DNA from: Diplonema papillatum
Lineage: Eukaryota > Euglenozoa > Diplonemea > Diplonemida > Diplonemidae
Assembly: GCA_030068145.1 (NCBI GenBank)
Contig: JAPJBO010000350.1
Location: 62,001-126,000 of the forward strand
DNA length: 64,000 bases
Direction of reading: 5' to 3'
Part shown: positions 341 through 61,940 of the stretch, piece by piece
Position numbering within the stretch: the stretch's first letter is position 1
Layout: each line of letters starts with the position of its first letter
Notes under the pieces: generated by a model
Database searches by the model: none
What the model saw: only the letters and a program-made list of their open reading frames with translations
What the model was told of the DNA's origin: nothing
Program-made: the position numbers and the translations under genes

Positions 341-790
341 TCGCTGCCACATCACAGCAGCTTGATGAAGATGGGCGTCTGCTTATCAGAGCACCTCTTC
401 AGTGAACCGCACGCAAACCTTCTCAACCAACAGGAGCTAAAAAAAAAAAGGAAGGAAAAAGCGAAAAGAAAGGAAAAAAAGAAGAAGAAAAAAGAGACTC
501 GCTCTCTCACCTCAAACCGGGACACCCCCGCCCTCCCCGTCCGCCACCATTCAGCGACCGACTGGACCCGCTCTCCCCGTGTTGCTACCGCCGCCGCCTG
601 AAAGAACCGCGCGAAGCCGTCGGCGAGGATAGCCGACGCACCCGGAGAGAAGAGTGGCGGGCCCTCGGTTCGATAACGTTTCGCTCCTTCGGGTCGGACG
701 AGAGCGACGGGCAGCTGGAGAGGACCGTCAGCAGGAGCTTGCCGCACCGGATCAGCGACGCGTTCGGCAGTCCGAACGTGTGATAGGCTG
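341..790 (+). pseudogene. Truncated tandem copy of the pseudokinase promoter and head
   Basis: A unit of about 450 bp occurs here and again at 791-1268, where it becomes the start of the intact gene at 1077. Each unit opens with a short piece that resembles an internal stretch of the gene (about 1269-1305), continues through a purine-rich leader, and ends in the first 40-odd codons of the gene. In this upstream unit the start codon context reads GAGGATAGCC where the intact gene has GAGGATGGCC, so the initiator ATG is lost. The copy therefore carries a duplicated promoter region but no usable frame. The layout indicates tandem duplication of the 5' end of the gene. Confidence 0.8.
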
Positions 791-1076
791 CTCGCTGCCA
801 CATCACAGCAGCTTGATGAAGATGGGCGTCTGCTTATCAGAGCACCTCTTCAGTGAACCGCACGCAAACCTTCTCAACCAACAGGAGCTAAAAAAAAAAG
901 GAAGGAAAGCGAAAAGGAAGGAAAAAAAGAAGAAGAAAAAAGAGACTCGCTCTCTCACCTCAAACCGGGACACCCCCGCCCTCCCCGTCCGCCACCATTC
1001 AGCGACCGACTGGACCCGCTCTCCCCGTGTTGCTACCGCCGCCGCCTGAAAGAACCGCGCGAAGCCGTCGGCGAGG

Positions 1077-2770
1077 ATGGCCGACGCACCCGGAGAGAAG
1101 AGTGGCGGGCCCTCGGTTCCGATAACGTTTCGCTCCTTCGGGTCGGACGAGAGCGACGGGCAGCTGGAGAGGACCGTCAGCAGGAGCTTGCCGCACCGGA
1201 TCAGCGATGCGTTCGGCAGTCCGAACGTGTTCGCGGACGTGGCGCCGAAACAGCCGTCGATCGCCTGCTCGCTGCCGCAGCACAGCAATTTGATGAAGAT
1301 GGGCGTCGTGCGCCTGGCGAAGATGCCGCTCTCCTCTTCGATGATGCCCCTGGCGCCCGTGTCCGACGACCGCCCCGCGTCGCCCGCCTGCTTCGGCGCC
1401 CAGAAGAGCTTCGACGACGCCTCGAGCCCGCGCACGATGTCGACTGGCCCGTTCTCCTCGCTCTTCCCCTCCGCTGGCACCCCGAGCCACGCCGGCGCAC
1501 CAGACGCCGCGAAACCCGCCGCCAACGGCGCCACCGCGCCCGTGCCCAAGCGCGCGAGCGACACGTCGTCCCTCGCTCCGGCGGCCGGCAAGAAGCAGGC
1601 GTGGCGGCCCCGGCGGTCGGTCAAACCGTCGCTGCCGCCGCCGCCGAAGCACCATACGTGGTTCACCGGGAACAACAAGCGGTACCCCGAATTCCTCGAG
1701 TACCTCAAGGACACCGAATGCCGCCGGAAGAGCATCGCCAAGAGCCACAACGCGAAGGCCCTCGACGTCGCCGAGGCGTCGTGCCGGCAGAAGAGCATGC
1801 TGAAAGACACGCGGTCCCTCATCCCGAAGCTTGAGCCCGACGAAGCCCGGAAGCGCCTCGCCGCCGTCATCAGCGGCAGCGAGTTCTCGATCCCCCCGAC
1901 GCAGCAGTCCCTCGAGGAGGAGGGCATCCCGTTCGTGCCGTCGGCCGACCTGAAGCACCGCTTCTTCTTCAGCTACTGGGTGCCGATCGTGTCGACCAGC
2001 AACACCGGGTTCTACCGGTGCACAAACCGCACGACCCTCGAGCGCCACTACATGAAAATCTTCAAGAAGCAGCCCCCGGAGCGGCGGTACTGGGAGAACT
2101 TCTCGCTTGAGCTCGCCGTGCTGCTGGAAGCCGCAAAACTTGCCGAAGCTGGCGGCCAGTCGCGCAACGTGGGGCAGCTGATCGACGTCGTGCAGACCGA
2201 AAACGAGGTGCACGCGATCGTTTCCGCGTCGGAAGAGGGCACCAGTTTGCTGGTCAGAGTCCGGGACAGGAAGGGATTCCTCCCGTTGTCGTGGGTGCGC
2301 GACGTCGTCAAGGGCGTCGCCGACGCCTTCCGGACACTGCACGAAGAGCTGCTGGTCGCCCACTGCGGTCTGAAGCCGGGTGAGGTGATGGTCACGAACC
2401 AAGGTGCGGTGTTCCTCGAGGACTTCGGGAGCATCCGGTGCCTCAGCGCTGAGAGTCGGCTGGCGCCGTCGTTCAGCCGGGTCCGGCGGAGGACCGTCGA
2501 GCCGAACAGCGCTTCTTCCCTCATTTCGAAGGACCTCACGTCCCTCGGGGCCCTCCTGCACCTCCTCCTCTACGGGCACGTCCCGTCTTACCCGGTTCCT
2601 GCGTCGCATCTTCCCAGCGGCGCCCCGCCTCTCCTAGCTTGCCTCCTCAGCGGGTCTCTCACGTCCGAATCCGTCATCAACCACTCCTGGATCAATGACT
2701 TGTGCCGCTCTGGCGAGGAAGACGTGCAGTTCTCCGTAGCTAACCCCGACGAGTGGATGAAGTCCACCAG
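1077..2770 (+). CDS. Pseudokinase-like protein, first long exon
   Basis: The frame starts at an ATG in a context duplicated upstream and encodes about 564 residues before a consensus splice donor (CCAG|GTACGT) at 2770/2771, leaving two bases of an incomplete codon. Residues 1-190 are Ser/Pro/Ala-rich and probably disordered. The C-terminal half has the layout of a protein kinase lobe: an HCGLKPGEVM stretch near residue 428 in place of the catalytic HRDLKPxN loop, an intact DFG at about 449-451, and a helix-F-like KDLTSLGALLHLLLYGH at about 485-501. Loss of the catalytic Asp and the loop Asn suggests a pseudokinase. The open frame continues past the donor into interspersed repeats, so I treat the rest as intron. 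The downstream exon was not found and may lie beyond the retrotransposon at 3.4-7.2 kb. Substrate and partner are unknown. Confidence 0.65.
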
Positions 2771-2802
2771 GTACGTCAATTTCTTAGCAGCAGTGACATT
2801 GC

Positions 2803-2960
2803 GGGTTGCCCTTCAATGCATTGTGCAGGCGCTCAAAAGACGTGGGCAGCTGGTTGATCAGAATTCCTTACCTGAATATACACAGGGTAAACACAAGTGG
2901 GGAAAAACGATCAACCGCGGCACGCACAAACGAAACGAAGCGCCTGTCTTTTCTCCTTCA
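2803..2960 (+). repeat. Repeat B, copy 1
   Basis: This copy of a roughly 165 bp family carries GTTGCCCTTCAATG, GATCAGAATTCCTTACCTGA and GAAGCGCCTGTCTTTT. It lies just after the pseudokinase splice donor, so it is probably intronic. Other copies are near 10.7, 10.9, 25.4, 32.2, 33.7 (reverse) and 53.1 kb. Confidence 0.8.
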
Positions 2961-3015
2961 GTGTCCGCGGATAGGGGGGGTCGGGGAGTAGCCGCAAGAA
3001 GAAAGAGAAGAAAAA

Positions 3016-3290
3016 GGCCGCTCCTGGTCCAGGAACGTGACGGTCAACCACGGCTTGCAAAGCTTGAGTCGGAGGCAGCACAGTGCCACAACCCCGTCCG
3101 CTCTGCCCTGCGGCTGACCGTCTCGACGAGCTTGTGTTCAGCGCGAGCGCCAAGCCCCAAGGTGCGCCAAGCCTTGATGCTTTAGTTTGGGAAATCGGTA
3201 GCCACTTGACCCGTAGGCCCGTGGCTCTGCAGTACCGCCGAACACGTGAAGCTTGGCTCCCGTGTAGCAGGCTTTCCCTGGTACCTGGGA
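3016..3290 (+). repeat. Repeat E, copy 1
   Basis: A stretch of about 275 bp beginning GCCGCTCCTGGTCCAGG and ending near CCCTGGTACCTGGG. It is repeated in reverse orientation at 56073-56352 with only scattered differences. It is an interspersed repeat of unknown class with no coding signal of its own. Confidence 0.75.
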
Positions 3291-3490: not shown

Positions 3491-4372
3491 ATGGCGGTTG
3501 ACCTGAAGGCCTACGACTGGTCCCCCATCAAGGTGGTCCTCGCCCCCGAGGGATGGAACGCCGCCGACGAAGACCCTGATTGCTGCCTTGATTGTGGGAA
3601 GATCCACATCAAGGGCGCTTTCTGCGCCATGTGCGGGAAGCGCGGCAGCGAAGCCTGCCTCAAAGGGTCATTACCCAAAGAGATTTCGCCCCGGTTCCTC
3701 GAGAACATGTCCGAGGACGGGTGGCTCTGCCCCTTTTGCCTGGTGTCACTACACCAAGATGGCTTAAGTGTCGAAGAGGAGCTCAAGCGCAGGGCCTCCC
3801 GTGATCACGATCACGCCGGCCCTCCGGTAGTGGGACCGGAGGCCCTGCTACGCGATGTCGAGGATGGGCCCACCAAAACGGCCTTGCAGGCCGTCATTGC
3901 GCTCCTGTTTGCCCAGCAGACCCAGACCCCCGCCATCCCCGTCCCAGCCCCTCTGGTCAATACCGAGGCGGTTGATCCTCGCCGAGTCACGACTTGGTTG
4001 GCAGGATTGGAGACGGCGCAGGGGCGGCAGCTGATCCTGTCGGAGATCAAGGGGCGGTACGCGTACCACATGGTGCCCGAGAACCCCCACGACGCCGCTA
4101 GCTCAATAGACCATGAGAGGAGAATCCACTTCTCTACCCTGGAGGCTTTGATGTCACTAAGTCGGCCCTGGCCCAGGGTCAGAAAGCCATGTCGGAGCTG
4201 GCAAAAAAGGCCGACACCCGGGACGTCAAGAAGGAGAGCTCCTCGAAGAGGCAGCGGAGATGAAGTTCGGCGAACCCCACTGCCCCCTTGGGCATGCCGA
4301 CAGAGGGCTTGTGGGCAGACGCGATGGCGAGGTCACTACCTCGAAAGAAGGATCACTCCTGTCCCGATCTAG
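3491..4372 (+). CDS. Gag-like zinc-finger protein of the retrotransposon
   Basis: The first frame of the element starts at an ATG immediately after the left terminal repeat. Its N-terminal third carries closely spaced Cys pairs (CLDCGK, CAMCGK, and WLCPFC) with the spacing of a PHD- or treble-clef-like zinc module, followed by Ala/Gln-rich and acidic segments. Position and zinc-binding character fit the structural (gag-like) protein of a DIRS-type element. Its 3' end overlaps the recombinase and RT frames. The assignment rests mainly on position; sequence similarity to known gag proteins cannot be judged by eye. Confidence 0.5.
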   Translation: MAVDLKAYDWSPIKVVLAPEGWNAADEDPDCCLDCGKIHIKGAFCAMCGKRGSEACLKGSLPKEISPRFLENMSEDGWLCPFCLVSLHQDGLSVEEELKRRASRDHDHAGPPVVGPEALLRDVEDGPTKTALQAVIALLFAQQTQTPAIPVPAPLVNTEAVDPRRVTTWLAGLETAQGRQLILSEIKGRYAYHMVPENPHDAASSIDHERRIHFSTLEALMSLSRPWPRVRKPCRSWQKRPTPGTSRRRAPRRGSGDEVRRTPLPPWACRQRACGQTRWRGHYLERRITPVPI

Positions 4373-6818
4373 ACCGGTTTCAGCAGGATCAGGAGGCACT
4401 CCTCCTTGCCATGCAGAGGTGCTACAAGAGCAGCCCAGCCATGCTGTCCGTCGTGAGCCGCGCTCACAAGTACGCGCTGGAAGCCCGACGCTTTCACCCG
4501 ACGCTGACCGACGAGGAGGCCTTCCTCATGTGGGTGAATCGGAAGGTGGCGAGAGGCGACATCAAGGCCGACTCTGCTCTCCAGTACGTCACGTACTACC
4601 GGATGTCACGAGTGAACTGGATGAGCGCGTATCGCCGCTCGGTCAGACTGTCCATGGACAAGTTCGAGGACCGACGCACCCGCGATGCCGGGCGCACTCC
4701 GACCAAGGAGGAGATCCAGCAAGTGGTCTCACGGCGCGCCAACCTACACACCATGGCCCTGCGCTTCCAGTGGTCTACGGCTTGCCGATTCATCGACCTT
4801 CAACGGATTCGATTGGACCACATGTGGACTGTGGACGCGCAACAGGTCATGATCCTGTTTGTCGGCGGAAAGACCGACCCTACCTCTCTAGGACAGGGTC
4901 TCTTACTGCCTCGAAGCGGTCCTTTTCTAACGCCTTTTTGGAAATGGATCACTATCCATCGCCCCCCCATGGGGTCCAAGGCATTCGTGTTCCCCGACCT
5001 GTCACGACAGGCGTACAACAACTTCCTACAAGAGGAGTTGGGGGTCCCCTCCCACCGGATCCGGCATGCCGCACTCACTTGGGTGGCTTTGGTGGAAGGC
5101 GAGCAGACGGCGATGTGTGTGGGGCGTCATCGCAACCCCAGGACGACGCGAATGTACACGCCGCATCACCTCTGGCAGCCGGTTCTGCACACAGCCTCGG
5201 GCACAGCTGCCCTGCAGAAAACCGACTGAAAGACGGCCCTGTCAAAGGCCCCTTCTGGCCGCGTCACCTCGACAAGATCCTGCAGGGGTACGACTACGCC
5301 AACGGCTGGCTCGACGCCAGCAGTGGAAAACGCGTCACGAAGGCTTCCTACGAGGGGGAGATCGCTTCCACTGCTCCGCCATTTGACCACGAAGCGCTCC
5401 TGCAGGATTTCCCCGGCCTCCGCATCAACATGAAGTGGCTTCTCGACCCCGCCTTCATCAGCAGCATGCTCAGGCCGGGTTCGTTCGTTGTCGGCCCCGG
5501 CCCGCGGAACTCGCGAATGATGCCGCACGTCGATCGGCTTCTCCAGCTGGGCATCGCCGCTCCGGTCCCTAAGGCGATCTCTTCTCGCTGGTTCCACGGT
5601 GCGTTCACCGTAGACAAGCGGGCGCCGGGTCAACTCCGGTTCATCCTCAGCTGCGAGTCCGTCAATCGGGCCACGGCACATGTGCCTCTGCCGGCTTGCG
5701 ACCTGCCCAGCTACGCCACCATCGTCAGCACGGTGCTGTCTCGGAGTTGGGTCGCCGAATTCGATTTTCGTTCTTTCTTCTTCCAGTTCGCCCTGCCTCC
5801 GGAGGTTAGAAAGTACTTCTGTTTCCGCGTTGAGGGCAGGCTGTTCTGGATGACCCGCCTGCCCATGGGCTACCGCGCCGCGCCTCAAGCCGCCCAGGCG
5901 GTTTCGCTGGAACTGGCGGCGGCCGCCGCCCAGGGTTTGGACGTCGAGGTCCTTGCCTGGATCGACAACGTGATATTTGTAGCGAACACGGAAGCCGACG
6001 TCGCGCAGGCCTCAGCACGTTTCAAGGCGTTGACTTCAAAGTACGGATTGACCATTGGGAGCTGGTCGAAACCCGCCACCCGGGCGGTTTTGTTGGGGCT
6101 GGAGTTCGACCTCGAGGTGAAGAGTTGGCATGTTGACCCATCATGGATAGCGAAGGCGGGCCCGGTGATGGGTCAAATCTTGGAGCTCAGCGCGGCTCCC
6201 GTCCGCATATGGTGGAAGCTGACCGGGTCCCTGCTTTGGCGGCGCCATGTCATGGGGTTCCCTCTCCACGGAGTATTACCCCTCTTGCAGTGGATGTCTG
6301 CGCTGGCGTCTGGCCGTTCGTCTTCCGACAGCGCGTTTTGGGACACCGTCGCATCTTGCCCGACCGCGGTCAAGAGCTGCCTCCTCGCCCAGTGCATCGA
6401 CATGCGAGCTAACGCCTGGCGGCAGTGGTCTCAGCCGGCGTTCATGAGTTCGATCGACGTCGTCTCCGATGCTAGTATGTCGGCCTGGGCGTACGTAATC
6501 GGCGATTTTCATGCTCATGGCCGCTTCCCTCCGGAGTTGGCCCCCGCAGACATCTTCATGAAGGAGCTCTACGCTGTGGTTCGGGCCGTACAACATGCGG
6601 TCCGCGGTCGGGCGAAAGTGGATATCAACCTCCTATGTGACAACAAGGCTGTCATCGGATGCGTACGCCGGGGCTACACCCTTCGCCACGACGCCATGCA
6701 GTTGCTGACTCTGATCAACCAGAGCTTGGCCGCGTCTACGAGCCGGCCGAACATCAGCTATGTTCAGTCGCTACAGAACATTGCGGATCAGTACACAAGA
6801 CTGGTTCGCCCGCAATAG
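4260..6818 (+). CDS. Reverse transcriptase-RNase H of the retrotransposon
   Basis: The frame is open from about 4260, but the conserved part starts near 5270, after the recombinase ends. The RT palm and fingers are recognisable from VAEFDFRSFFFQFALPPE to LPMGYRAAPQ. An RNase H domain follows, marked by VVSDASMSAWAYVIGD, then MKELYAVVRAV, and INLLCDNKAVI, in the usual D-E-D order. Together these copy element RNA to DNA and remove the template. The first 300 codons overlap the recombinase in another frame, so translation probably begins internally or by a coupling mechanism as in other DIRS-like elements. Confidence 0.75.
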   Translation: MKFGEPHCPLGHADRGLVGRRDGEVTTSKEGSLLSRSRPVSAGSGGTPPCHAEVLQEQPSHAVRREPRSQVRAGSPTLSPDADRRGGLPHVGESEGGERRHQGRLCSPVRHVLPDVTSELDERVSPLGQTVHGQVRGPTHPRCRAHSDQGGDPASGLTARQPTHHGPALPVVYGLPIHRPSTDSIGPHVDCGRATGHDPVCRRKDRPYLSRTGSLTASKRSFSNAFLEMDHYPSPPHGVQGIRVPRPVTTGVQQLPTRGVGGPLPPDPACRTHLGGFGGRRADGDVCGASSQPQDDANVHAASPLAAGSAHSLGHSCPAENRLKDGPVKGPFWPRHLDKILQGYDYANGWLDASSGKRVTKASYEGEIASTAPPFDHEALLQDFPGLRINMKWLLDPAFISSMLRPGSFVVGPGPRNSRMMPHVDRLLQLGIAAPVPKAISSRWFHGAFTVDKRAPGQLRFILSCESVNRATAHVPLPACDLPSYATIVSTVLSRSWVAEFDFRSFFFQFALPPEVRKYFCFRVEGRLFWMTRLPMGYRAAPQAAQAVSLELAAAAAQGLDVEVLAWIDNVIFVANTEADVAQASARFKALTSKYGLTIGSWSKPATRAVLLGLEFDLEVKSWHVDPSWIAKAGPVMGQILELSAAPVRIWWKLTGSLLWRRHVMGFPLHGVLPLLQWMSALASGRSSSDSAFWDTVASCPTAVKSCLLAQCIDMRANAWRQWSQPAFMSSIDVVSDASMSAWAYVIGDFHAHGRFPPELAPADIFMKELYAVVRAVQHAVRGRAKVDINLLCDNKAVIGCVRRGYTLRHDAMQLLTLINQSLAASTSRPNISYVQSLQNIADQYTRLVRPQ
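4294..5229 (+). CDS. Tyrosine recombinase of the retrotransposon
   Basis: About 311 residues. The C-terminal half has the phage-integrase fold signature: an Arg in the STACRFIDLQR region, an HRIRH box, a GRHRN box and the nucleophile Tyr in TTRMYT, in the correct order and spacing. In DIRS-order elements this enzyme integrates a circular DNA intermediate by site-specific recombination, usually without target duplication. It lies between the gag-like and RT frames and overlaps both, an arrangement known from PAT-type elements. Confidence 0.78.
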   Translation: MPTEGLWADAMARSLPRKKDHSCPDLDRFQQDQEALLLAMQRCYKSSPAMLSVVSRAHKYALEARRFHPTLTDEEAFLMWVNRKVARGDIKADSALQYVTYYRMSRVNWMSAYRRSVRLSMDKFEDRRTRDAGRTPTKEEIQQVVSRRANLHTMALRFQWSTACRFIDLQRIRLDHMWTVDAQQVMILFVGGKTDPTSLGQGLLLPRSGPFLTPFWKWITIHRPPMGSKAFVFPDLSRQAYNNFLQEELGVPSHRIRHAALTWVALVEGEQTAMCVGRHRNPRTTRMYTPHHLWQPVLHTASGTAALQKTD

Positions 6819-8008: not shown

Positions 8009-10148
8009 CATAGATGGCCGTTATATAACGTTATATAACGTTATATAACGTTATTCCCGGAGTTATTTGTTACCCCCCCCCTTAATCCAGAAAAACCGTT
8101 ATTGACCGTTATAAAACCGTTATTTGCCATTTTTGGTCGAAAAATAACGTTATTTGACCGTTATAACGTTATATAACGTTATATAACGTTATAATAACGG
8201 TATAATAACGTTATATAACGTTATAATAACGTTATATAACGTTATAATAACGTTATATAACGTTATATAACGTTATATAACGGTTTTTTACCAATCCATG
8301 GGAGGTCACACTGTCCTCCAGATTTTGGTCATTTTTGGCCATTTTTGCCACATTTTCCAGATTTTGGCCAATTTTGGTTATTTTTGCCAATTTTTCCAGA
8401 TTTTGGTCAATGTTGACCAGTTTTGCCGTGTTTTCCAGATTTTGGCCCATTTTGGCCGTTTTTACCGATTTGGCCAGGATTGGCCATTTTTGCCATGTTT
8501 TTCAAAAATTTGGCTATTTTTGCCGATTTTTCCAGGTTTTGGTCATTTTTGGCCAGTTTTGCCATGTTTTCCAGACTTTGCCCATTTTGGCCGTTTTTGC
8601 CGATTTTTCCAGGGTTTTGGTCATTTATGCCCTGCCCCTCACCAGAGCTATTCTTGTCTGAGTTTCTTAAACCCGCACAAGCTCGAACAGGCAGTCCGTG
8701 CGCGGAAAAAAAAAAAGGTCGAAAGACACCAATCTGTACACCCATTCGGGATCGTCGGAAACACAAAAACACGTGTACCGCCCCACCCGCTTCGATTTCA
8801 GCCACACTAGTCTTTCCAAAGGGAATATCGACTATGCCTGCGAAAAGCTCCCCGAAGGTCCAGCCGAAGCCGAAGGTTCAACCTAAAGCTCAGCCGAAAG
8901 CTCAGCCGAAGACCCCAGGTACACAGCGCAAACGGCCTCGCGCCGAAAGTACGGATAGCAACAGCAGCAGCAGCAGCGCCTCGGTTGCAAAGGCGCGACG
9001 CGGAAGGAAGAAGGTGGCGGAAACGCTGCGCGTCGAGGCCTTGTCCCGCGACCTGGCATTGACTGGCCCCAGCGTTCTCCCTGTCACGAAACCACCAAGT
9101 AAGAGCCCGGAACAACGATTCATCGACCGGATCAAGAAAACCGACCCCGGGCTGGCTGGGTTCTACGGGAAGCGCCAGCTGTGACTGCTCGACTTTGCAT
9201 GTCTCGTGCTCATCATGCACCCATATTTGGTACTGGGACCTTGTCTGACTGGCATAGTACGCAACGGTCTGCCGAGTGGACAAGCTTGGACAAGTTGGAC
9301 TCCAGTGGCCGGATCATGCTGGTGACATCTGCTGCCTCACGAAGGACACTGCAAACGACCGTTACGGGCCACCGACTGAGGGACACGCGCCGGAAACCCA
9401 AAACTGCAGACATCCACATCCCAAGAACAACATCGCACAGTGAAAGAGTCATGTGAATCCGGAAGGATCGCGTTTGTCGCGCTTGGGTGGAAGTCCGCAA
9501 GAAAATAAGTAAAAGAGAAAAAGCTCTGGGGAGGGGCTATACGGACCCCTGAGGACCGGTTACTACGAATTCTTTTCGGACCAGGGTTTGTTTCCGAACA
9601 GTTTTTGTGACCGGGATCCAAAAATCGGCAAAAGTCTGGAAAAATTGGCAAAAATGGCCGAAATTGACCAAAATCTGGAAAATCGGGAAATCTGGAAAAA
9701 TCGGAAAAAATGGCCGAAATTGACTGATCTGGATAAATCGGCCAGAGTGGCCAAAATCTCAAAATTGTCCAAAATCTTGAAAAATCGGCAAAAATGGCCG
9801 AAATCTGGAAAAATCGGCAAAGATTGCCGAAATCTGGAAAAAATCGGCAAAATGGCCAAAACCTGAAAAAATCGGCAAAAGTCTGGAAAAATTGGCTAAG
9901 ATTGACCAAAATCTGGCAAAAATGGCCAAAATCGGAAAAAATGGCCGAAATGGACCAAAATGAGGAAAAAATGACAAAAATCTGGAAACATGGCCAAAAT
10001 CGGAAAAATTCTAAAAACCGTTATTTGCGTTATTTTTTCCGTTATTTTGCGTTTTCGACCGTTATATAACGTTATATAACGTTATATAACGTTATCACCG
10101 TTATAACGTTATATAACGTTATATAACGTTATCAACCGGCCATCTATG
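8009..10148 (+). mobile_element. 2.14 kb TIR element with two-tier terminal arrays
   Basis: The ends are inverted: CATAGATGGCCG at 8009 and its complement ending at 10148. The flanks carry a 6 bp duplication, ATAATC, at 8003-8008 and 10149-10154. The uninterrupted target is visible in other repeat A copies (TTTTGTATAAGCACCTGC), confirming the boundaries. Each end has an outer array of TTATATAACG units (8020-8280; 10057-10130) and an inner array of 20-25 bp units built from TTTTGGCCATTTTTGCC-like words (8319-8632), with the complement at 9610-10005. The centre holds a small Lys/Pro-rich frame. No transposase is seen, so it is probably non-autonomous. The 6 bp duplication would fit hAT6-, Dada- or IS3EU-like groups; I cannot choose among them. 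Confidence 0.8.
8834..9184 (+). CDS. Small basic protein inside the 2.14 kb element
   Basis: 116 residues from an ATG. The N-terminus is a PKxQ/PKVQ repeat (four near-repeats such as QPKAQPK), followed by a KRPRAE patch resembling a nuclear signal, a Ser run, another basic patch (KARRGRKKV) and a C-terminal segment ending FYGKRQL. It lies exactly between the two inverted arrays of the element. It may be a DNA-binding protein of the element, a captured host exon, or fortuitous. No family is recognised. Confidence 0.4.
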   Translation: MPAKSSPKVQPKPKVQPKAQPKAQPKTPGTQRKRPRAESTDSNSSSSSASVAKARRGRKKVAETLRVEALSRDLALTGPSVLPVTKPPSKSPEQRFIDRIKKTDPGLAGFYGKRQL

Positions 10149-12656: not shown

Positions 12657-13325
12657 ACCAGCGAAACTGGAAGGAAGCGTTTTTGGGTTAGAATGCAAAC
12701 AATCTGTGACGATAGTCTGCATCTGGTCACTTTTCGTGACCACCTACCGTGTCATGTTTCCGGCGCTTGTTATCGTCCGGCTGTTGCTGGAGCACCCGGC
12801 GGTGGTGATGGAAGCGACCGCAGGGATCCGAGTAGGTCAAGTCTCAAACATATCTCGTGAAGGAGCGTGGTTGGAGATCTCCAACTCTTACCGCCCACCG
12901 AAGTGGCGGCTTCGTTGTGTTAAACGGTCTGACCTCTGACTGCAGCATCAAGCCAAGTGCATCCGTTCCTCCAAAGTGTTCCCGTTCATGGAAGGAAGCG
13001 TTTTTGGGTAAGAATGCAAACAATCTGTGACGGTAGTCTGGTCACTTTTCGTGTCCACCTCTTCGAGCGTACCGTGTCATGTTTCCGGCGCTTGTTATCT
13101 TCCGGCTGTTGCTGGAGCACCCGGCGGTGGTGATGGAGACGACCGCAGGGATCCGAGTAGGTCAAGTCTCAAACATATCTCGTGAAGGAGCGTGGTTGGA
13201 GATCTCCAACTCATACCGCCCACCGAAGTGGCGGCTTCGTTGTGTTAAACGGTCTGACCTCTGACTGCAGCATCAAGCCATCGGTGTTCCGGAAGTGCAT
13301 CCATTCCTCCAAAGTGTTCCCGTTC
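12657..13325 (+). repeat. Tandem duplication of a 330 bp unit
   Basis: Two copies (about 12657-12990 and 12988-13325) share GGAAGGAAGCGTTTTTGGGT at the start and CCTCCAAAGTGTTCCCGTTC at the end. Both keep a 61-codon frame beginning MFPALVI and ending KRSDL (12757-12939; 13079-13264) with only a few replacements. The frame may be a small exon or chance; it matches no family I know. Confidence 0.7.
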
Positions 13326-13552
13326 AAGTTCGCCCTTGACTTATTAAGACAGTCATCGTGCACCGTCAGCCGGGGCGGCAGAAAAGGAAGGCCGGCTTCG
13401 GCCGTGCAAGAAGCATTGTTGTTTGCGTGTCTTCATTTTTCCCTTGCGTTTTTTTTGGCGCGTGCAATGGGTGAAGAAAACTGATCCGCTCGAACAGCAA
13501 AATTGTACGGCGGGCTCCATTGGCTAGCCTCCATTGCACGGGGGGGGGGGGA

Positions 13553-15491: not shown

Positions 15492-15539
15492 CATATAAAA
15501 CCCTGAAATTAGGGGGGGGGAGAAGCAAAAACCCGTACA

Positions 15540-38954: not shown

Positions 38955-39545
<591 letters not shown>

Positions 39546-46935: not shown

Positions 46936-47647
46936 GCACCATTCTACAGCGTGGCTCGCTGGACCGAAACCCGGGAAGAGTGTGCACCACGAGAGGTCCC
47001 CGGAAGTGTTCTTTCCCCTGTTTCCCATCTTTCCCCTCTTCAGCCACGACGAAGTTACGCACATATCCCTTTGTGCTTTTCTCGTTTCCATGCGCATCTT
47101 CCTGGATCAGGTTTCTTGGCGCATGGTCCAGCCGGGTAGAGAAGAACACCAAGAGACCGTGAGTCGGCATTGCGGATTGTCATGGCGAACTGCGTTCCGT
47201 GGCGGAAGACTCGGTCGCCAACACTGTCCTCGAGTGGGATTACTCCCCGTGTGTACGCCACAATGTACGCGGCATACCGCTGGTGTCGCTGAGAAGTGAT
47301 AACGGGTCCTTGTCCTGGCTGTTCAACCCGGCACAGATGGGCACAGGGGATCGGAAGCAGTCGGGACCGTGCACATACGCAGTGCACATGAGGCAGTGCG
47401 CCGCTGTGGCCACACCCTGATTGAACAGTTGTGCGCCCGTGGGCTGCGACCGGCAGACACAGAGCCCACTCGCGGTTGGAGGTGGGCTCATAGTGGCCAT
47501 AAGCTCTTCCCGAGTGTGGCAAGGATACTTGACCGCTCACCATCATCACCATAATTGTGCTGCTGGTAGCCGCAATGAAAAGGTTCACAATGACTGTTAT
47601 GTGCAGGAATGGAAGTAAAAGTCCACGAATAAATACTAAGACTACTG

Positions 47648-47935
47648 AGTATTTTTCATTGGAAAACGTTCACCCGCACCCCACCCGCACTCCACACGGA
47701 CTCACACCGAGTCCGTGTGGAGTGCGGGTGGGGTGCGTGTGGGGTGCGGGTAGGAGTCGTCGGCGGAAAAAAAAAAATCTGCGCGGAATGCGGCGGACTG
47801 CATAGTATGTAGTAAAATTTGCACTTTTACTAGTAAAAATTACAAGTGCACTAGTAAATTTTACTAGTGCACTTGTAAATTTTACTAGTGCACTAGTAAA
47901 AATTACAAGTGAATTCAGGTGTTTTTCAGACCAAA
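47648..47935 (-). repeat. Right inverted block and terminal array of the hAT-like element
   Basis: The complement of 44050-44180, with an extra local palindrome (CACACGGACTCACACCGAGT type), then eight or so alternating ACTAGT/ACAAGT dyads between 47826 and 47920. These repeated dyads are candidate transposase-binding sites. Confidence 0.8.
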
Positions 47936-52600: not shown

Positions 52601-54281
52601 GCTCCGTCGCGGACGCGTCGGCTTGGTCCAAGCACACGACTCTCACCACCCACGACATGCACCACGCGCCCCGCGCGTGCGGCCAGTCCTCGGAGGCTGA
52701 TAGCCTGCCCTATTTCATGGACGACCAGCGGGTATGCCTTTTTAGGATCAAGTCGCGCCTCCGGAGCGACTTACGCCCGCCGTAGCAGTGCGAAGAGAAG
52801 TGAGGAGACCGGAAACTCCCCGGAGAGATGGTCCCTGCACTCTAACTCGTCTCTCTCTCCCTCTTTCTCTCTCTCTCTCTCAAACTTTCCCCGGGGGTTT
52901 CCGAATGTTTCTGGGTTCCCTGTGGGGTTGGGTGCCAGTCGGGCTGTTTTTTGTGGCTGCATTTGTGGTTTCTGTGTGGTTTCCTTAAGGAATTGGCTTG
53001 TGTAGGTGGTTTCGCCTTTTTTAACATTCTGTAGGCCCTACATCAGCCTAAACGTTGCCCTTAAATGTATTGTGCAGGCTAAAAAGACGGAGGCAGGCGT
53101 GTTCTGGTACCCTGGGTTGATCAGAATTCCTTATACCTGAATATGACACAGGAGAAATACAAGTGGGAGAACTATCAACCGGCACGCCAAACAAAACGAA
53201 GCGCCTGTCATTTTTGAATCTGCGAGGGCTGGCGGGGCGCGTTAAGTCCTCTTTCTTCACACTCGGCGGCTTCCAAGCTCCGGGGGTCGAAGCCACCGCG
53301 GTAGATTCAATTAGCTAAGCGCAACGAACCACAAACCAGGGAAGTGTTGGACACCGTTTGCCAAAGGAATCGGAATACCAAAAGTTCCCACCCACCCGCA
53401 CCGGTGGAAACGCAACTCATTTAGTTTTTTGAAAGTATGCCAATACTGCAGGGAATAGTTGACTAGACCTCTTGAGTTTGTGCTGACCACGAATAGGGGA
53501 GTCGGGAGAACCTACAAAGCCAAAAGCAGGACCGACCCCCCCGTTCGTGAGAAAAAGCGAAGAATAAAAACACCTTCTTTTTTCCATCTATCTTTGTCAA
53601 GAGCTGCAACTCAACTATTCCTCCCTTTCGAGAGTTTCTTTCATTGAGCTGAATCAGTGAAGATCGTCAACGAGTGAAGCGCGCAAAGCATTCTCGTGCC
53701 CACTTTCTGTAGCGTTTTTTCAAGGCTTTCTGCACACTCGACAGCCTCCACACCCCTCCGTCCGTGAGGCGATATGAATCCACGCTTACCCACCACAGCG
53801 CGCACCTGCGGATTCCGGTGGAAACAGGGCCACATCGACGCCAGCCCGAAGGCCGGACAACGACTCCTGTGAGCTGAGCCCCTTCAGCCGAGCCAGCTAC
53901 ACGGAGCCCGTAGCTACTGCGGTGGCAGCAGCGGTGTCGCCCGCGCCTTATGGAGGTGGATCGAAGAACGGGCCGAACGTCGAAAGTCAGATACGTGCGT
54001 TGGAGGCGCAGGTGGCCGAAGCCTCCGAGCGCTTGAAGCTGTTCGCAGCGTCGCGCGCCGAAAGCGCGTATCCGGGGCCAGCCTCTGCATCTCGCTCTGC
54101 CGGCTTCGACCCGCCCGCCGGCTTCGAGCGACGGCAGGTGCCCGGTGCCGTGGACCACCACGTAGTGCCCTCGCATGCGCACGAGTCTGCGATGACCGAT
54201 TCGCTGTCGACTTCTCGTCTCACTGCTCTCGAACCCGCGCCGGACGCTCTTCAAGAAGTCCTCTGCGCCCGGACTGCATAG
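49674..54281 (+). CDS. Probable three-exon gene for a disordered, coiled-coil-ended protein
   Basis: Model: exon 1 49674-49788 (ATG; donor ATAG|GTGAGT), exon 2 50651-52731 (acceptor CCAACAG; donor CGG|GTATGC), exon 3 53799-54281 (acceptor CACCACAG). All junction phases agree and give 892 residues. Exon 2 lacks any in-frame ATG, so it must be preceded by another exon; exon 1 is the best candidate but tentative. The only folded-looking block is AYRDLFESIGSRAHVDPRRL then QQYEIPTHIYAEDP and, later, FGDPWRVDIKPSDFLVPNRR. The rest is Pro/Ala/Ser/Gly/His-rich and probably disordered. Exon 3 ends in a short heptad stretch (ESQIRALEAQVAEASERLKL). No family is recognised. Intron 1 holds a hAT-derived MITE; intron 2 holds repeats B and G. 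Decayed tail copies follow. Confidence 0.5.
50320..50505 (-). mobile_element. 186 bp MITE related to the hAT-like element
   Basis: On the reverse strand it starts CTACACGGTGCAGTAGTAAA, as at the left end of the hAT-like element, continues with ACTAGT/ACAAGT dyad arrays and ends TACAAGTGATTTCAGGTG like the right end. It is an internal-deletion derivative with both ends and no coding part, located in intron 1 of the 49.7-54.3 kb gene. Confidence 0.8.
53050..53215 (+). repeat. Repeat B, intronic copy
   Basis: From AACGTTGCCCTTAAATG to GAAGCGCCTGTCATTTTTG. It lies in the inferred second intron of the disordered-protein gene. Confidence 0.8.
53450..53625 (-). repeat. Repeat G, intronic copy
   Basis: Reverse-oriented relative of the RAD1 intron repeat (ACCTCTTGAGTTTGTGCTG, GTGAGAAAAAGCGAAGAA, AGAGCTGCAACTCAAC). 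It sits 170 bp before the inferred acceptor at 53798. Confidence 0.75.
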
Positions 54282-54289
54282 TTAGCTAC

Positions 54290-55340
54290 ATGTAGGTGTC
54301 CAACGGATCCGGCATCAACGTGCAGGCAGGGTGACACAGAGCTGAAGCTGCGCGCAGAAGGCGCGTATCCGGGACTAACCTCTGCATCTCGCTCTACCTA
54401 CAGGTCCCTCGCATGCGCACAAGTCCGATGACCGACTTGCTGTCGACTTCCCACTGCTCTCGAACCCGCGCCGGACGCTCTTCAAGAAGTCCTCTGCGCC
54501 CGGACTGCATAGTTAGCTACATGTAGGTGTCCAACGGATCCGGCATCAACGTGCAGGCAGGTGACACAGAGCTGAAGCTGCGCGCAGAAGGCGCGTATCC
54601 GGGACTAACCTCTGCATCTCGCTCTACCTACAGGTCCCTCGCATGCGCACAAGTCCGATGACCGACTTGCTGTCGACTTCCCACTGCTCTCGAACCCGCG
54701 CCGGATGCTCTTCAAGAAGTCCTCTGCGCCCGGACTGCATCGTTAGCCACATGTTGGTGGTGTCCAACGGACTCGGCATCAGCGTGCAGGCGGATCGGAG
54801 GAGGGGGTGACACTCTAAAGCTGAGTTTGCAGCATCGAGCGCCGAAGGCGCGTATCCGGGGCCAGCTTCTGCATCTCGCTCTACCGACTTCGCCCCGCCC
54901 GCCGGCTTCGAGCAACGACAGGAGTTTGGTGTCGCCGACCACCATGTAGTGCCCAGGAGGCAGACAAATCGGTCAAGACGGGGAGAAAATCTTAGTTTAA
55001 TGTTCAGGCAGGACACTGCCTCTCATGCATGTTTGATGCACGCAAAGGGAGGGGAAGACCTCAACAACCGTGTCGCAACCAGGTGTTACCTGAGGGGCGG
55101 CGCGGGTACCATCCCGATTTAAGTCCACGTCCGCTTACTCCGGTACAGCGAGACGGTGAATGCCGACCACGTGCGCTTCAGCTCTCAGAGTGATGTCGTG
55201 TACGTTGAGCACCAACATGTAGCTAACCATGCAGTCCGGGCGCAGAAGACTTCTCGAACAGCGTCCGGCGCGAGTTCGAGAGCAGTGAGGCGGGAAGTCG
55301 ACAGCAAATCGGTCATCGCAGACTCGTGCGCATGCGTATG
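54290..55340 (+). pseudogene. Decayed tail copies of the disordered-protein gene
   Basis: Three forward units (about 54330-54530, 54535-54745 and 54830-54960) repeat GGCGCGTATCCGGGAC, CTCTGCATCTCGCTCTACC, CTGTCGACTTCCCACTGC and CCTCTGCGCCCGGACTGCAT from the end of exon 3. A further copy at about 55205-55340 is inverted. All lack the heptad region and none has a full frame. Confidence 0.8.
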
Positions 55341-55495: not shown

Positions 55496-55630
55496 GAAGA
55501 ATGAGACAAAACCTTCATGGCGCCTTTCTTCTTCTTCGGCTGCACGTGGTGGGATCTTTCTGAAGAATGAGACAAAACCTTCATGGCGCCTTTCTTCTTC
55601 TTCGGCTGCACGTGGTGGGATCTTTCTGAA
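55496..55630. repeat. 66 bp tandem duplication
   Basis: AATGAGACAAAACCTTCATG through GGCTGCACGTGGTGGGATC occurs twice without change, the second copy starting 66 bp after the first. The flanks (55341-56060) show no gene. Confidence 0.9.
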
Positions 55631-56072
55631 GTAGACGGTGCCATCACCGAACAACCTTTCGACGTAAGAGAAGACCCCCCCTTCCCCTTTATAACCCGGA
55701 ATCCGGGAGCTGGGTCGCTTTGGCACTCAAATGCTGGAGCGAGCCGGCGAGAGGCTTCTTATTGTAGATTTCTGTTAGACTCCCTTTTTCTCTTTAGAGT
55801 CGACGAAGAAAAGTAGGGGGGAAAAAAAAGTAGAAAGCACGACCGCACCTGTGTGTTTACGCGCAAGGTTCTTCGTTTGCCGCTTTGCTTCTCTTGTTGC
55901 CGATGCGAGTAAGTCAACCAATTCAATTGCATTATCATAGCCGACCAGCCTGGCATGATCTCACTGTGTAGTTCGAAATGGCGAAGCCAGGGGGCGGAAA
56001 GATTGCACCCGAGTGAGGGGCGTGCCGAGCAGAGTGTCCCATCCAATCCATATCTTCATACTCGCTCGGAAA

Positions 56073-57105: not shown

Positions 57106-60100
57106 ACTTGAACCCCATCGACACAGCGGCGTTCAAAGCGGAGCTGAAGCGATACCTTGACTTCGAAGGCGAGCGCACGCAGGAAGCGTCGTTCCTGCAG
57201 CGCAAGATCCAGCTGTTCGACCCGGAGACGTTCCGATGGGGCGACCTCGTCAACATGGGGCAGCTGACCGACTGCTGCCAGCTCTTCGTGTTTACGGGGC
57301 CGACCGGACCCGGGAGCGAAATACCCCGCGATTTCCCGCCCCCTCGCACGGCCGCTCTCACCGCTGACCTGGAGAGCAAGCACGTCGACAGCGAGTGGTG
57401 GGAGAAGGCAATCGAAGAGGAGCCGTCCCTTTTAGTCATCCGGATCCTCGTCACCGAGTTCGTCGGCACACTGCTCCACGTGTGGCTCACCACATGCGCC
57501 CTCATCTACGCATCCCTATCCTGCGACCCGGCGAGCCCGACTTGCGCCATCGACAACATCACACCAGCAACCGTGCATTCCGCTTCCATCCTTGCCCTCA
57601 TCCTCTCATTCTCCCACTACAGCGGCGCGGATCTCAACCCCGCTGTGACCGTCGGCATGTACGTCGCCCGGAAGCTCACCTGGCCTCTGGCGACTTTGGC
57701 CATCATCATGCAGGTACTGGCGCGTTTCTTTTCTTTTTAGAAGCATTTCCGAAACCAACATACAAGTCTGTCAAGAAGAAGCAAGAGGGCACACGCGAAA
57801 AACAAAGCGAACTTTTGTTTGTGCGCACTTCCTTCAAACCTGTTTTGTTCATGTGACGGGAGTGAGGATAGTACGCTGCCATCGATCTGTTTTTGTTCTT
57901 GACAAATTGCATTTGTTAGACACAAAAACTGTCCTCTTATTTTTGGTCAGTTGATGGTCGTGCGTTACTTCGTTGATCAGTGCAAGCCCCGACTCCAGAA
58001 ACATACTTGTACAGGGAACGTGTCAGTTAGACTTTGGCGGACACTTGCCGGCATAGCGGAGAACCCGCCCCCCTCCCCCACCTTTATATTTTCTGAAGGA
58101 CAGATGACGGCATGGCAAACCATGGCTTTGTCCTGTAGGCTACTGTGGCCGACGCCCCTCGCCATGCCGGACATTGTCCGCCAAAGTCTAGCTGACACGT
58201 TCCCACACGCACCTGTTTGTAGGTAATACTCGAGGAGGTGCACGTCTCAAAGAAGTAGGAACTGAGATGTAGCCCACACGAAACACAAGTAAACTGCCCT
58301 GTTAAATCTGGATTCAGTGTCAGCAAAAAAAAGGGACCCACTTTGCAGTTGCATGGGTTCTCCCCCCTCCTCTAGAAAGCCGTCGAAACTCGGACATTCA
58401 GTTAAGATTTCCCCCCCGCGGTGAAAATGCAACCCCTGCTCAACATGCATGCGCGTGGGGCGCCCAAGACTAAATTCAAAGCGAATTTCTTCTTGGTGTC
58501 GGTCGCAACACTTACAAACGTGGCTAGCCGTAGTTAAAGTGTATAAGCATACCTACTACCCTCATACTACCCGCCTCACAGCCTCAATGGTCAACCGGAG
58601 ACCCTAAAACACCGAACCTCTAACCACAATAAACGCTAAAAAGAATGGATGAGGACTAGTCCCTCAAGGTTTCATACCACTACCTGCGGAGTCTTACACT
58701 CCCTGCGAGTCGGAGACCCCTTTACCGTTTCCCTTTTCTATTTTACACGTTCGAAGAAGACTAAACATTAAACCCCCTCCGTCCGTAAGGAGCTGACCAC
58801 AAAAAACCGGTCCTCAAAAAAAACCGTCCACCGCGAGAGTAGGAGAAAGTAGAAAAGGGAAACTAGAGTTTTCGTTGACCGCACTACCCTGAGCCCAAAT
58901 CCTGGACGTGGTTTCAGGTGGCAAATTTGGCAAGTGATCATGATCAGAAGGTCCTACTTGGGCGGTTCAGTTTCCTCACACATTGCATGATGCAGTGGCT
59001 TATATATGGGTCTGGTGCTCGGACCAAGTCGGAGCAACGAAAAAAAAAAAAAGCACAGAATGCCCCGGCTGAGGGGCCCAGTAGTAGTGCTACAGTACAG
59101 CAGTCACACTAGCAGTACACAGCACCGGTTACTGCACCTTTGGATCATCGTTGAAGCAACGTACAGCCTCAATTTTGGAACCTGCGACTGGCCCAATAGC
59201 TTGAAAAAAATTTCCGCGCCTGCGGCGCTGGTATTGTTTCATGACGTGTTGCCAAGAAAGCGAAGACCGCGGCTTTCCGCCCTGCTGTTGCAGATTACTG
59301 CCAAGTGTTCTTGAATGATCCCGGCACACTGCTACAGTACCCCAACACTCGCCTTCTTCGCATGGCTCTTCTGCTTCCGAAGGACAGTCGCTGTGATGGA
59401 CAGTAGTGACAACCAAAGAGGTGCACCCTGTCAGATACATAAACGTGCAGTTGTGCCGCAACTGGGATTTTTAGTAACTCCGAGCAACTTATGGACAGTT
59501 ACGTGGGAGGAATTTTATATATTAGGCCCTGATTGCATGTGGCTGAAAAAAAAAACACGCAGCTCCTCGGAGCCGTCGTTGCGACCGGGCTGGCCCTTGC
59601 GATGACTCCTGGCAGCGACGAGGCGAGCTTCGGGATGTTCAAGGACGGCGCGGTGCACGTCGTCACCACGGGGCCGCACCCGTTCTCGAAGGGGCAGGCG
59701 TTTCTGTCCGAGCTCCTGTCGTCCTTTTTCATCGTGTTCGTGGCGCTGACCATGGTCCGCCAGCGCTACACCAAGGCGACCGAGAACAAGACGCGCCTCC
59801 AGCCCCACCGCGTCGAAATGGCACTGGCCACCGCGGCCGCGTACTTCTCCTGCTTTTCGGTGTTCTCCGCCGCGTACCCCTCCACGTCGAACCCTGCCCG
59901 CGCCATAGCAATCGCAGCCGTCGCCCAGGACCACGGCGAGGGCTGGCGCGAGCTGTGGATATTCGCCGTCACGCCGCTGCTCGGCGGGTTTCTCGCGGGG
60001 GTCGCGTTCCGCGTCGCGCAGGGCATCGACCCCCCGGCCCGGCTCAGCGAGGCGCACGCGGACGCAGACGCGGACGAGCCGCCCGCGAAGCCGGCCGGCA

Positions 60101-60399
60101 CCGGCGGGGGCATGCGGCCGCGGGGCGGCGACAGGGCCCCGGCGGCCGACCCGTTCCCGGTGTCGCCGGCGGCCGTGAAGGCGGCGGCGAAGTCGAAGAC
60201 GATCAACGTTGTCGACGGGCAGCTCGAGGCGCGCATCCGGATCGCGCCGGACAGCGCGCACGCTGCTGTCCTCGACACCCTCGAGCGGTGGTCGGGGTTG
60301 AAGCGGGCCTGGGTCGCGGACGACTTTGGGGTCATGGTTACCCTTTCGTACCAGACAGTCGTTGACGGAGCCTTCTACAAGCTGTGCAGTGCTGGCTGA
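57106..60399 (+). CDS. Aquaporin-like (MIP family) channel, two exons seen
   Basis: Model: exon 57106-57713 (acceptor TATAG, donor CAG|GTACTG), intron 57714-59562, exon 59563-60399 (acceptor CACGCAG), at least 480 residues. No ATG opens the first exon in frame at its start, so an upstream exon is likely. Splicing in phase 0 gives IIMQ|LLGAVVATGL, the typical helix-4 junction of MIPs. The first half-helix signature is GADLNPAVTVG (Asn about 177), the second TSNPARAIA (about 312); both NPA boxes are intact. The N-terminal 125 residues and the C-terminal about 130 residues are unusually long; the latter has an Ala/Pro-rich linker and a small folded-looking unit (AAVLDTLERWSGLKRAWVAD, DFGVMVTLSYQTVVDG). 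Water or small-solute transport is inferred. Tail copies follow. Confidence 0.85.
57820..57935 (-). repeat. Repeat F in the aquaporin intron
   Basis: Reverse-strand match to 13553-13655 (GAGTGAGGATAGTACGCTGC, CGATCTGTTTTTGTTC). Beside it is an inverted pair, 58020-58050 and 58150-58200, sharing GTGTCAGYTAGACTTTGGCG and GCCGGCATR-type words. Confidence 0.72.
58020..58205. other. Inverted repeat, possible small TIR element
   Basis: GAACGTGTCAGTTAGACTTT with GCGGACACTTGCCGGCATAG at 58017-58058 is matched in reverse by 58158-58205 (CATGCCGGACATTGTCCGCC, AAGTCTAGCTGACACGTTC). The arms are about 45 bp and the whole about 190 bp, consistent with a MITE or hairpin element inside the intron. It has no coding part. 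Confidence 0.65.
58210..58395 (+). repeat. Repeat A, copy 8
   Basis: GCACCTGTTTGTAGGTAATA, TGTAGCCCACACGAAACAC, AAATCTGGATTCAGTG and the CCCCTCCTCTAGAAAGCCG tail. It lies in the aquaporin intron. Confidence 0.78.
58430..58645 (+). repeat. Repeat H, copy 3
   Basis: GCAACCCCTGCTCAACATG, TTGGTGTCGGTCGCAAC, GGTCAACCGGAGACCCTAAA and CCGAACCTCTAACC. Repeat I follows at 58875-58968, as also happens around 15.2-15.6 kb. Confidence 0.75.
58875..58968 (+). repeat. Repeat I, copy 2
   Basis: Matches 15540-15645 (TCCTGGACGTGGTTTCAGG, GATCATGATCAGAAGGTCC). Confidence 0.75.
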
Positions 60400-60509
60400 C
60401 CGAGCGGAGAAACGTCGGCAGCCCATTTCTCCTGACGTTCTGCCATCAGCTGTAGGGCACACGCTGAAAGCTGTCATGCGCCCTGGATCTTCCCGGAAAC
60501 CAACGGTGC

Positions 60510-61300
60510 CCGTATTAGCGCGCACGCTGCTGTCCTCGACACCCTCGAGCGGTGGTCGGGGTTGAAGCGGGCCTGGGTCGCGGACGACTTTGGAGTCATG
60601 GTTACCCTTTCGTACCAGACAGTCGTTGACGGAGCCTTCTACAAGCTGTGCAGTGCTGGCTGACCGAGCGGAGAAACGTTGGCAGCCTATTTCTCCTGAC
60701 GTTCTGCCATCAGCTGTAGGGCACACGCTGAAGGCTGTCAGGAGCCCTGGATCTTCCCTCCAGAAACCAGGTATTCACACGCCTACGGTGCCCGTATTGC
60801 ATGCTCCAGCGCCTAGCCCAGTGCCTAGGTACTCCTTCCTATTGGAAGGGTGCCTTGCGGCGTTGCGTTTCGGGTCGTCCAGAGCATCGACCCCCCGGCC
60901 CGGCTCAGCGAGGCGCACGCGGACGCAGACGCGGACGAGCCGCCCGCGAAGCCGGCCGGTACCGGCGGGGGCATGCGGCCGCGGGGCGGCGACAGGGCCC
61001 CGGCGGCCGACCCGTTCCCGGTGTCGCCGGCGGCCGTGAAGGCGGCGGCGAAGGCGAAGACGATCAACGTCGTCGACGGGCAGCTCGAGGCGCTCGCGCC
61101 GGACAGCGCGCACGCTGCTGTCCTCGACACTCTCGAGCGGTGGTCGGGGTTGAAGCTGGCCTGGGTCGCGGACGACTTTGGGGTCATGGTTACCCTTTCG
61201 TACTAGACAGTCGTTGACGGAGCCTTCTACAAGCTGTGCAGTGCTGGCTGACCGAGCGGAGAACAACTGTTGCCACCCGCGCAGCCAATTTCTCCTGACG
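60510..61300 (+). pseudogene. Tandem copies of the aquaporin 3' end
   Basis: A first unit (about 60517-60760) repeats the last 50 codons and the post-stop 100 bp. A second, longer unit (about 60855-61290) begins at the codons for FRVVQSIDPPARLSEAHAD and repeats the whole C-terminal tail; it ends at a TAG replacing the Gln codon of LSYQ. Neither has NPA boxes. Identity to the gene is very high, so both are recent. Confidence 0.85.
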
Positions 61301-61556
61301 TTCTGCCGTCTGCTGTCCCATGTGGAGCATGAACACGCACCACGTGGGCGGGCCTTTCCGCCAGCCCGTTGCTCAGCAGATCCTGAGACAACCAGCTTCG
61401 GTTGCCTCATCGGAGCGCGGCTCGTCGGCTTACGGGAGTGAACACACTGCCCGGACATAGGTTCCGTCGACACTCACGAAACTTTGCTTTTAAGTATCTT
61501 TTCGACTCCCCCTTCGTCCTGGACGAAGGAGGTGCATTGCCAGAGAAGTCACAGCC

Positions 61557-61690
61557 ACATGCATAGCCGTATGCATACGTATGCATACGTATGCATACGT
61601 ATGCATAGCCGTATGCAGCGCCGTATGCGTATGCGTATGCAGGTTTGGGCGCATACGCGTATGCAGCCGTATGCAGCCACCATAGCTCCA
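61557..61690. repeat. Array of TATGCATACG-type palindromes
   Basis: About a dozen GTATGC/GCATAC words, including four perfect CGTATGCATACG palindromes, alternate over 130 bp. The layout resembles the terminal arrays of the DNA transposons in this window but no inverted partner array was found. Confidence 0.75.
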
Positions 61691-61940
61691 CGGTGCCGTT
61701 ATTGCAAGCTCCAGTGCCTAGGTACCCCTTCCCGTTGGAAGGGTCCCTTGCGCGGCGTTGCGTTTCGGGTCGTGCCAGGGCTTAGGCTCCACGGGTGGAA
61801 CGTGTGGATTTCCACACGCTAATTTTTTTTTGAACTACGGTGTCCCTATTCATGTCCCAGTGCCTAGGTACTCCTTTCTGTTGGAGGGTTTCTCGCTGGG
61901 CGTTGCGTTCTAGGTTGTGCAGAGTGTCGATACGTTGCAT
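61690..61940 (+). pseudogene. Two decayed fragments of the aquaporin tail junction
   Basis: CAGTGCCTAGGTACYCCTT and GGGCGTTGCGTTTCGGGTCG-like sequence from 60800-60890 recurs at about 61690-61790 and 61845-61935. These are the oldest members of the tail array. Confidence 0.7.

Follow-up and report, generated by a model that had tools for sequence, protein, structure and literature searches.

The closest described counterpart of the arrays reported here comes from the same species. In Diplonema papillatum, "repeat-bounded gene structures" have the 5' untranslated region (UTR) and first codons of a gene, or the 3' ends of exons or genes, in tandem repetition (Valach et al. 2023, PMC10161547). 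The published example consists of 12-13 degenerate copies (71-96%) of a ~400-bp unit; it is supported by PacBio long reads, and RNA-seq places the array outside the mRNA. Dozens of cases are described, and the passages covered here contain neither statistics nor a mechanism. A full-text literature search for "diplonem" together with "repeat-bounded" returned PMC10161547 alone. Here we analyse a stretch of 64,000 nucleotides of the D. papillatum genome (C350:62001-126000, hereafter the window), in which the ends of several genes lie beside truncated tandem copies of themselves. As in the published structures, a gene-end portion is tandemly repeated beside an intact gene. Different from the published showpiece with its 12-13 copies, the gene-end arrays of the window have 2-3, and both ends of one gene can carry arrays.

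Partial duplicates have been studied in animals and yeast. In Caenorhabditis elegans and yeast, the span of a duplication relative to gene length, together with selection, is argued to set whether a duplicate is partial or complete (PMC2728529), and about half of the young C. elegans duplicate pairs are partial or chimeric (cited in PMC2728529). The median spans are ~1.4 kb in the worm and ~1.0 kb in yeast, whereas the units described here range from 63 to 580 bp with block medians of 72-282 bp (six blocks), and in the part of PMC2728529 covered here yeast is reported to be without partial duplicates. In Drosophila, small segmental duplications are short, frequent, and purged where they disturb function, and 3' UTR ends are said to be partially duplicated more often than 5' UTR ends (PMC6380325). 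The Drosophila data differ from ours in that they represent polymorphism, with interspersed copies outnumbering tandem ones and with marker sites over-represented, not under-represented, in coding sequence (CDS) (PMC6380325).

The gene-end copies of the window are real, are of a kind already described in the species, and are mostly explained by duplication and selection. Specifically, frequent short tandem duplication filtered by purifying selection is the probable source of these copies.

Results

Placement of arrays relative to coding sequences

Arrays were located by self-alignment of the window sequence, which belongs to an assembly of 271,365,524 bases in 2910 contigs. Gene models were open reading frames (ORFs) chosen by iterated hexamer score, supplemented with the curated exons of RAD1 and the ARL2-like gene. 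The comparison sample comprised a separate 240 kb (C350:126001-166000, C1:1-100000, C2:1-50000, and C3:1-50000). The contig end C10:1-10000 (L021) was kept out of the tests; it has four multi-copy, satellite-like arrays without a gene model, which cover 7,396 of its 10,000 bases. We counted 15 arrays in the window and 32 in the comparison sample. The main null was random placement by unit length with internal placements dropped, and thus describes surviving units.

Arrays are depleted from the interior of CDSs. None of the 15 window arrays lies inside a CDS (3.08 expected, P 0.034), and outside the window only one of 32 does so (6.80 expected, P 0.006). The ORF that holds this lone internal array has a low score (36.6) and lies on the other strand from its neighbours. 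Arrays away from gene models are common: 27 of the 32 arrays outside the window touch no CDS model, and seven of the 15 window arrays are classed outside genes, or five after removal of the 788-amino-acid (788-aa) gene's head array and the array at 54168-54888, both of which the initial annotation had linked to genes. The former is classed outside because a dispersed element splits off its gene-bound copy; adding it would make the window end count nine of 15. The gene-anchored pattern proposed in the initial annotation of the window hence holds insofar as gene ends carry arrays, but not for the five of 15 window arrays without a gene tie.

The geometry of the copies follows from unit length. 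Eleven long window units (238-504 bp) were placed at random 200,000 times over the 13 window CDS models; 65.6% of placements were intergenic, 15.2% spanned one CDS end, 19.2% fell inside a CDS, and 0.0% covered a whole CDS. The copies are truncated, point outward, and share the strand of the gene because the tandem units are shorter than the gene, and copying one gene end therefore keeps the gene whole and adds a truncated copy on its outer side. As outward direction and shared strand are expected of any sub-gene duplication, they are uninformative on mechanism.

Gene-end arrays in the window

The heads of four genes and the tails of five genes are affected (Table 1). Every head or tail copy listed in the initial annotation was recovered by self-alignment. 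The best pair of each listed gene-end array has an expectation value (E) of 2.1e-49 or lower, which excludes chance. The gene-end pairs are 72-98% identical, and the eight arrays that count as gene-end arrays in the window have units of 136-513 bp. All adjacent pairs are direct and on the same strand, with no adjacent inverted array in the five blocks surveyed. The one inverted exception, also noted in the initial annotation, is a partial copy at 55191-55336, ~300 bp from its array.

Table 1. Tandem arrays of the window. Positions are those of the window; identities are from self-alignment. CDS, coding sequence; ORF, open reading frame.
Array	Position	Strand	Gene and unit	Aligned copies (identity)	Pfam match of gene
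Protein-kinase-domain gene, head	337-1307	+	CDS 1077-3185; two ~451-476 bp units	337-830 and 788-1307 (92.2%)	Pkinase, E 7.6e-11
RAD1, head	15480-16411	+	exons 16142-16930 and 17408-17590 (deposited protein P0001)	outer copy 15636-15938 and gene copy 16109-16411 (98.0%); upstream part 15480-15531 and 16066-16115	Rad1
Beta-helix gene, head	22040-22788	+	CDS 22617-24737; 367-bp unit	22040-22412 and 22407-22788 (93.0%)	Beta_helix, E 7.4e-12
788-aa gene, head	32602-34000	+	CDS 33832-36198; three copies	32602-33123 and 33106-33638 (93.6%); third copy 33806-34000, the gene itself	
Lysine-methyltransferase-like gene, tail	19828-21312	+	CDS 19226-20140; gene end and two decayed copies	19828-20256, 20298-20728, and 20811-21259 (74-76%)	Methyltransf_16, E 3.6e-19
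ARL2-like gene, tail	30645-31503	+	last exon about 30174-30665; ~251-bp unit	more diverged pieces reach back to 30567	Arf, E 1.1e-59
788-aa gene, tail	35760-37005	+	gene end and two further copies	35760-36374, 36247-36830, and 36834-37005	
ORF 44315-46711, tail	46645-46936	+	136-bp unit	46645-46794 and 46781-46936 (85.4%)	
Aquaporin C-terminal exon ORF, tail (arrays)	59998-61316	+	ORF 59602-60399	60253-60494 and 60517-60758 (97.5%); 59998-60453 and 60859-61316 (92.1%)	MIP, E 2.2e-11
Three-copy ~238-bp array	54036-55336	.	array 54168-54888, downstream of ORF 50503-52785	54172-54317 and 55336-55191, inverted (89.7%)	
Two-copy 321-bp array	12668-13326	+	no gene model; intergenic counterpart of the gene-end arrays	(89.2%)	
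Two-copy ~355-bp decayed array	37748-38286	+	classed outside genes	(69.9%)	

Pfam supports the kinase, Rad1, beta-helix, Methyltransf_16, Arf, and MIP identities of the genes concerned, while the names glycosyltransferase and hAT transposase, also given in the initial annotation, are unsupported. The supposed glycosyltransferase is the 788-aa gene, for which Pfam, NCBIfam, and PDB sequence searches returned nothing. No hAT domain was found by Pfam in any ORF scanned, and ORF 50503-52785 has no Pfam, PDB-sequence, or NCBIfam match, leaving its hAT identity unconfirmed. A homologue search with the aquaporin exon returned none. The modelled start codons of RAD1 and the 788-aa gene are consistent with database entries (P0001 and P0005, respectively).

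Two arrays carry insertions in single copies. The outer RAD1 copy hosts a ~90-bp dispersed element (15546-15635), of which 8 stretches including itself occur in 314 kb (five blocks). The third head copy of the 788-aa gene, which has arrays at both ends, is split by a 157-bp dispersed element (33634-33790) with 11 stretches including itself in the same 314 kb. Self-alignment revealed no tandem duplication within the RAD1 intron. At the kinase gene, the first ~44 bp of a third unit fall inside the CDS; the 43-bp overlap was considered as a microhomology and rejected, for it reads as the start of this third copy. Among seven isolated two-copy arrays inspected for junction microhomology, the sole clean case above the null is the beta-helix array, whose three unit edges each carry the 6-bp CCCGCG without mismatch (chance of 4 or more at a junction, P 0.021).

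The dispersal of units was checked for six arrays by a genome search that passes over very common words. The kinase and methyltransferase arrays have their own locus as sole match, and the RAD1 array is found at two places only, both at its own locus. A reading of the units as parts of a dispersed transposon family is thus rejected for these three arrays. It is likewise rejected for the beta-helix array, whose remaining 34 genome matches are short pieces, for the 54-55 kb array, which includes short dispersed pieces, and for the tail array of the 788-aa gene, which occurs nowhere else as a whole and whose coding part has three weak relatives (71-75%).

Decay and constraint of the outer copies

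We made 14 gene-versus-copy comparisons (15 were printed, and one between two truncated copies was dropped); as several come from the same gene, they are not independent. Frameshifting indels occur in the CDS part in seven of the 14, and the two decayed methyltransferase copies have 8 and 7 of them. The other seven comparisons, including those of RAD1, the beta-helix gene, and aquaporin, have no frameshift. Pooled substitutions at the three codon positions number 62/61/84, which is close to even. In these respects the outer copies largely behave as free DNA. In 11 of the 14, conservation is higher in the CDS part than in the noncoding remainder of the unit (sign test P 0.057), as expected if one copy is protected. 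With one copy under selection, a gene-end pair should diverge nearly half as fast as an intergenic pair, and would thereby be detectable up to about twice as long.

Copies at other loci

Twelve Arf loci were fetched from the genome; seven belong to a single array on contig C1847, one is the window's own, and there are four others. At L039, a tail copy extends across the stop codon (units 1931-2059 and 2261-2390, stop 2044-2046). At L029 and L030, arrays lie downstream of the domain match and do not overlap with it, whereas L028 lacks an array. Contig C280 has a full Arf match and, upstream of it, a partial one that contains a stop, as judged from the protein match only. Truncated copies at other Arf loci mean that the pattern is not confined to the window's contig, nor is it universal. 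The C1847 array (L031-L036 and L038) is a whole-gene tandem array with a ~1.3-kb period, comprising seven long domain matches and a partial one at the contig start. For kinase-domain matches (133; 129 of 919 candidates scored), inspection by eye revealed no repeated domain segment within 3 kb, and these were unused as evidence.

Other repeats and elements in the window

A perfect two-copy 66-bp repeat at 55496-55631, with 4-bp GAAG at its edges, is probably very recent. A (CA)n microsatellite of 419 bp with 99% matches occupies 39029-39447, and a reverse-transcriptase ORF lies at 4161-6818 (RVT_1, E 6.6e-9). The element-like segment 47810-50478 has inverted arrays at its edges whose unit is a 21-bp palindrome (47829-47925 vs 50425-50329, ~90%); that these are terminal repeats of a DNA transposon is a guess. 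Another segment of ~2.1 kb (8018-10148) is edged by inverted arrays of the 10-bp unit CGTTATATAA and by further inverted minisatellite-like arrays (8163-8612 vs 10132-9692, 73%), making it a possible non-autonomous element.

Discussion

We propose that short tandem duplications arise frequently in this genome through an ordinary process acting on DNA, for example replication slippage, microhomology-mediated copying, or unequal exchange, and that they land at roughly random places. A duplication within a CDS would break the gene and be lost, and one in intergenic DNA would be tolerated. A duplication across a CDS end would leave the gene intact with a same-strand truncated copy, located upstream in the case of a head and downstream in the case of a tail. 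The outer copy would then be free to decay and to receive insertions. As one member of a gene-end pair is protected, such pairs would be recognisable for longer than intergenic ones, giving a modest apparent excess at gene ends. The suggestion in the initial annotation that selection keeps only partial copies fits the depletion of CDS interiors and the frameshifts in half of the comparisons. Its premise that ordinary tandem duplication copies whole genes or random segments is mistaken: the units are sub-gene in size, and end copies are the CDS-touching outcome that spares the gene. Whole-gene arrays do exist where units are longer, as the Arf array with its ~1.3-kb period illustrates.

Several observations weigh against this proposal. 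The first is the number of arrays across a CDS end. With the unit-length null, this number is eight of 15 in the window (2.44 expected, P 0.0007) and four of 32 outside (1.85 expected, P 0.11); over five threshold settings, the P values of the end excess range over 0.0000-0.008 in the window and 0.047-0.30 outside. The slower decay of gene-end pairs, invoked above to account for such an excess, is an argument, not a measurement, and its size is inferred. Third positions account for 41% of substitutions, a little more than one third (P 0.032), which suggests some constraint on one or both copies. Support from junction microhomology is thin. In addition, hexamer-scored models miss short exons and UTRs, so that some of the arrays counted as outside may adjoin unmodelled genes.

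The end count depends on the null and on the sample. A null based on whole-array length gave no significant end excess overall, with 12 of 47 end arrays (8.6 expected, P 0.126), with eight of 15 in the window (3.7 expected, P 0.011). It was replaced because it is too generous, given that only an original unit that crossed a CDS end can yield an array straddling one; the change to the unit-length null shifted the result toward gene-end excess. End arrays are commoner in the window than in the rest (eight of 15 vs four of 32, Fisher P 0.009), the window having been chosen for this feature. In two of the four end arrays outside the window, the unit length (108 and 102 bp) is a multiple of three, and these two may be coding repeats that keep the frame instead of truncated copies.

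The best surviving rival explanation is that duplication is targeted to gene ends. Boundary DNA would break or stall replication more often, and duplications would begin there; candidate sites are the spliced-leader acceptor and polyadenylation regions, UTR chromatin, and base-J or R-loop sites. In favour of targeting, end arrays are three times as many as expected in the window and, without significance, twice as many outside it, and heads and tails are hit about equally. A coding-content test, which is independent of gene-end models, points the same way in the window, where nine of 15 arrays are mixed coding and noncoding (5.6 expected, P 0.051, array-length null). Outside, however, mixed arrays are rarer than random (three of 32 vs 7.0 expected), albeit under the array-length null, which is generous. 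Moreover, the window is the discovery sample, most arrays outside it touch no CDS model, and the unit edges of 12 arrays, inspected by eye, have no common motif. In addition, D. papillatum genes reportedly form co-transcribed clusters and are trans-spliced to a spliced leader (PMC10161547), which leaves no per-gene promoter or terminator. Coupling of the copies to transcription start and stop, the first of the two options offered in the initial annotation, is therefore unlikely and finds no support here beyond the lean of the outside end count in its direction; "promoter" was for the same reason the wrong word for the upstream part of the copied heads. If the expectations for end arrays are doubled in line with slower decay, they become ~4.9 and ~3.7, vs the 8 and 4 seen, and targeting is unneeded. 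On balance, we regard it as unlikely, although a modest pull toward gene ends may exist.

A still less probable explanation is that the copies are retained for a function, as extra trans-splice acceptors, upstream ORFs, or 3'-UTR elements. The comparisons without a frameshift and the slight over-representation of third-position changes are in its favour, and the long 3' UTRs of the species (median ~800 bp) would take in tail copies (PMC10161547). Against it, most pairs that keep the frame are among the younger ones, the methyltransferase copies, which are the oldest, are broken, and the changes are spread almost evenly over codon positions. The published example array is absent from mature mRNA (PMC10161547).

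It is very improbable that the copies were templated by RNA, with retroelements reverse-transcribing the ends of mRNAs and placing them back next to the gene. The window does contain a reverse-transcriptase ORF, and the genome is reported to be retroelement-rich (PMC10161547). Nevertheless, the upstream reach of the head units from the modelled ATG is 289 bp for the kinase gene and 210 bp for the beta-helix gene. This exceeds the 5' UTR typical of the species (~70 bp, PMC10161547), and DNA beyond the mRNA thus appears to have been copied; the counted arrays are, furthermore, adjacent and direct. An assembly artefact through mis-joined or duplicated overlaps, suggested by the 97-98% identity of some RAD1 and aquaporin pairs, is just as improbable and was rightly doubted from the start, as identity is 72-94% in the remaining gene-end arrays of the window, dispersed elements have inserted into single copies (the outer RAD1 copy and the third 788-aa head copy), and the assembly was built with long reads, which confirm one array elsewhere (PMC10161547).

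Random short duplication with purifying selection offers a simple filter for a published diplonemid oddity, in that sub-gene duplications can survive at gene ends and outside genes, not inside them. It also carries a warning for annotation, as start and stop regions may be duplicated. That gene boundaries are duplication hotspots, several-fold above background, with tail copies feeding long 3' UTRs and new introns, is a doubtful proposition at present. A tandem duplication inside a gene can turn into an intron. Intron gain by this route would match the exon end that is repeated in the first intron in a case of PMC10161547. The residual excess at gene ends, if true, would provide a clear example of duplication specific to gene boundaries and of UTRs that grow by copying themselves, and whether gene ends are duplication hotspots is now reduced to a count that is answerable from the deposited annotation.

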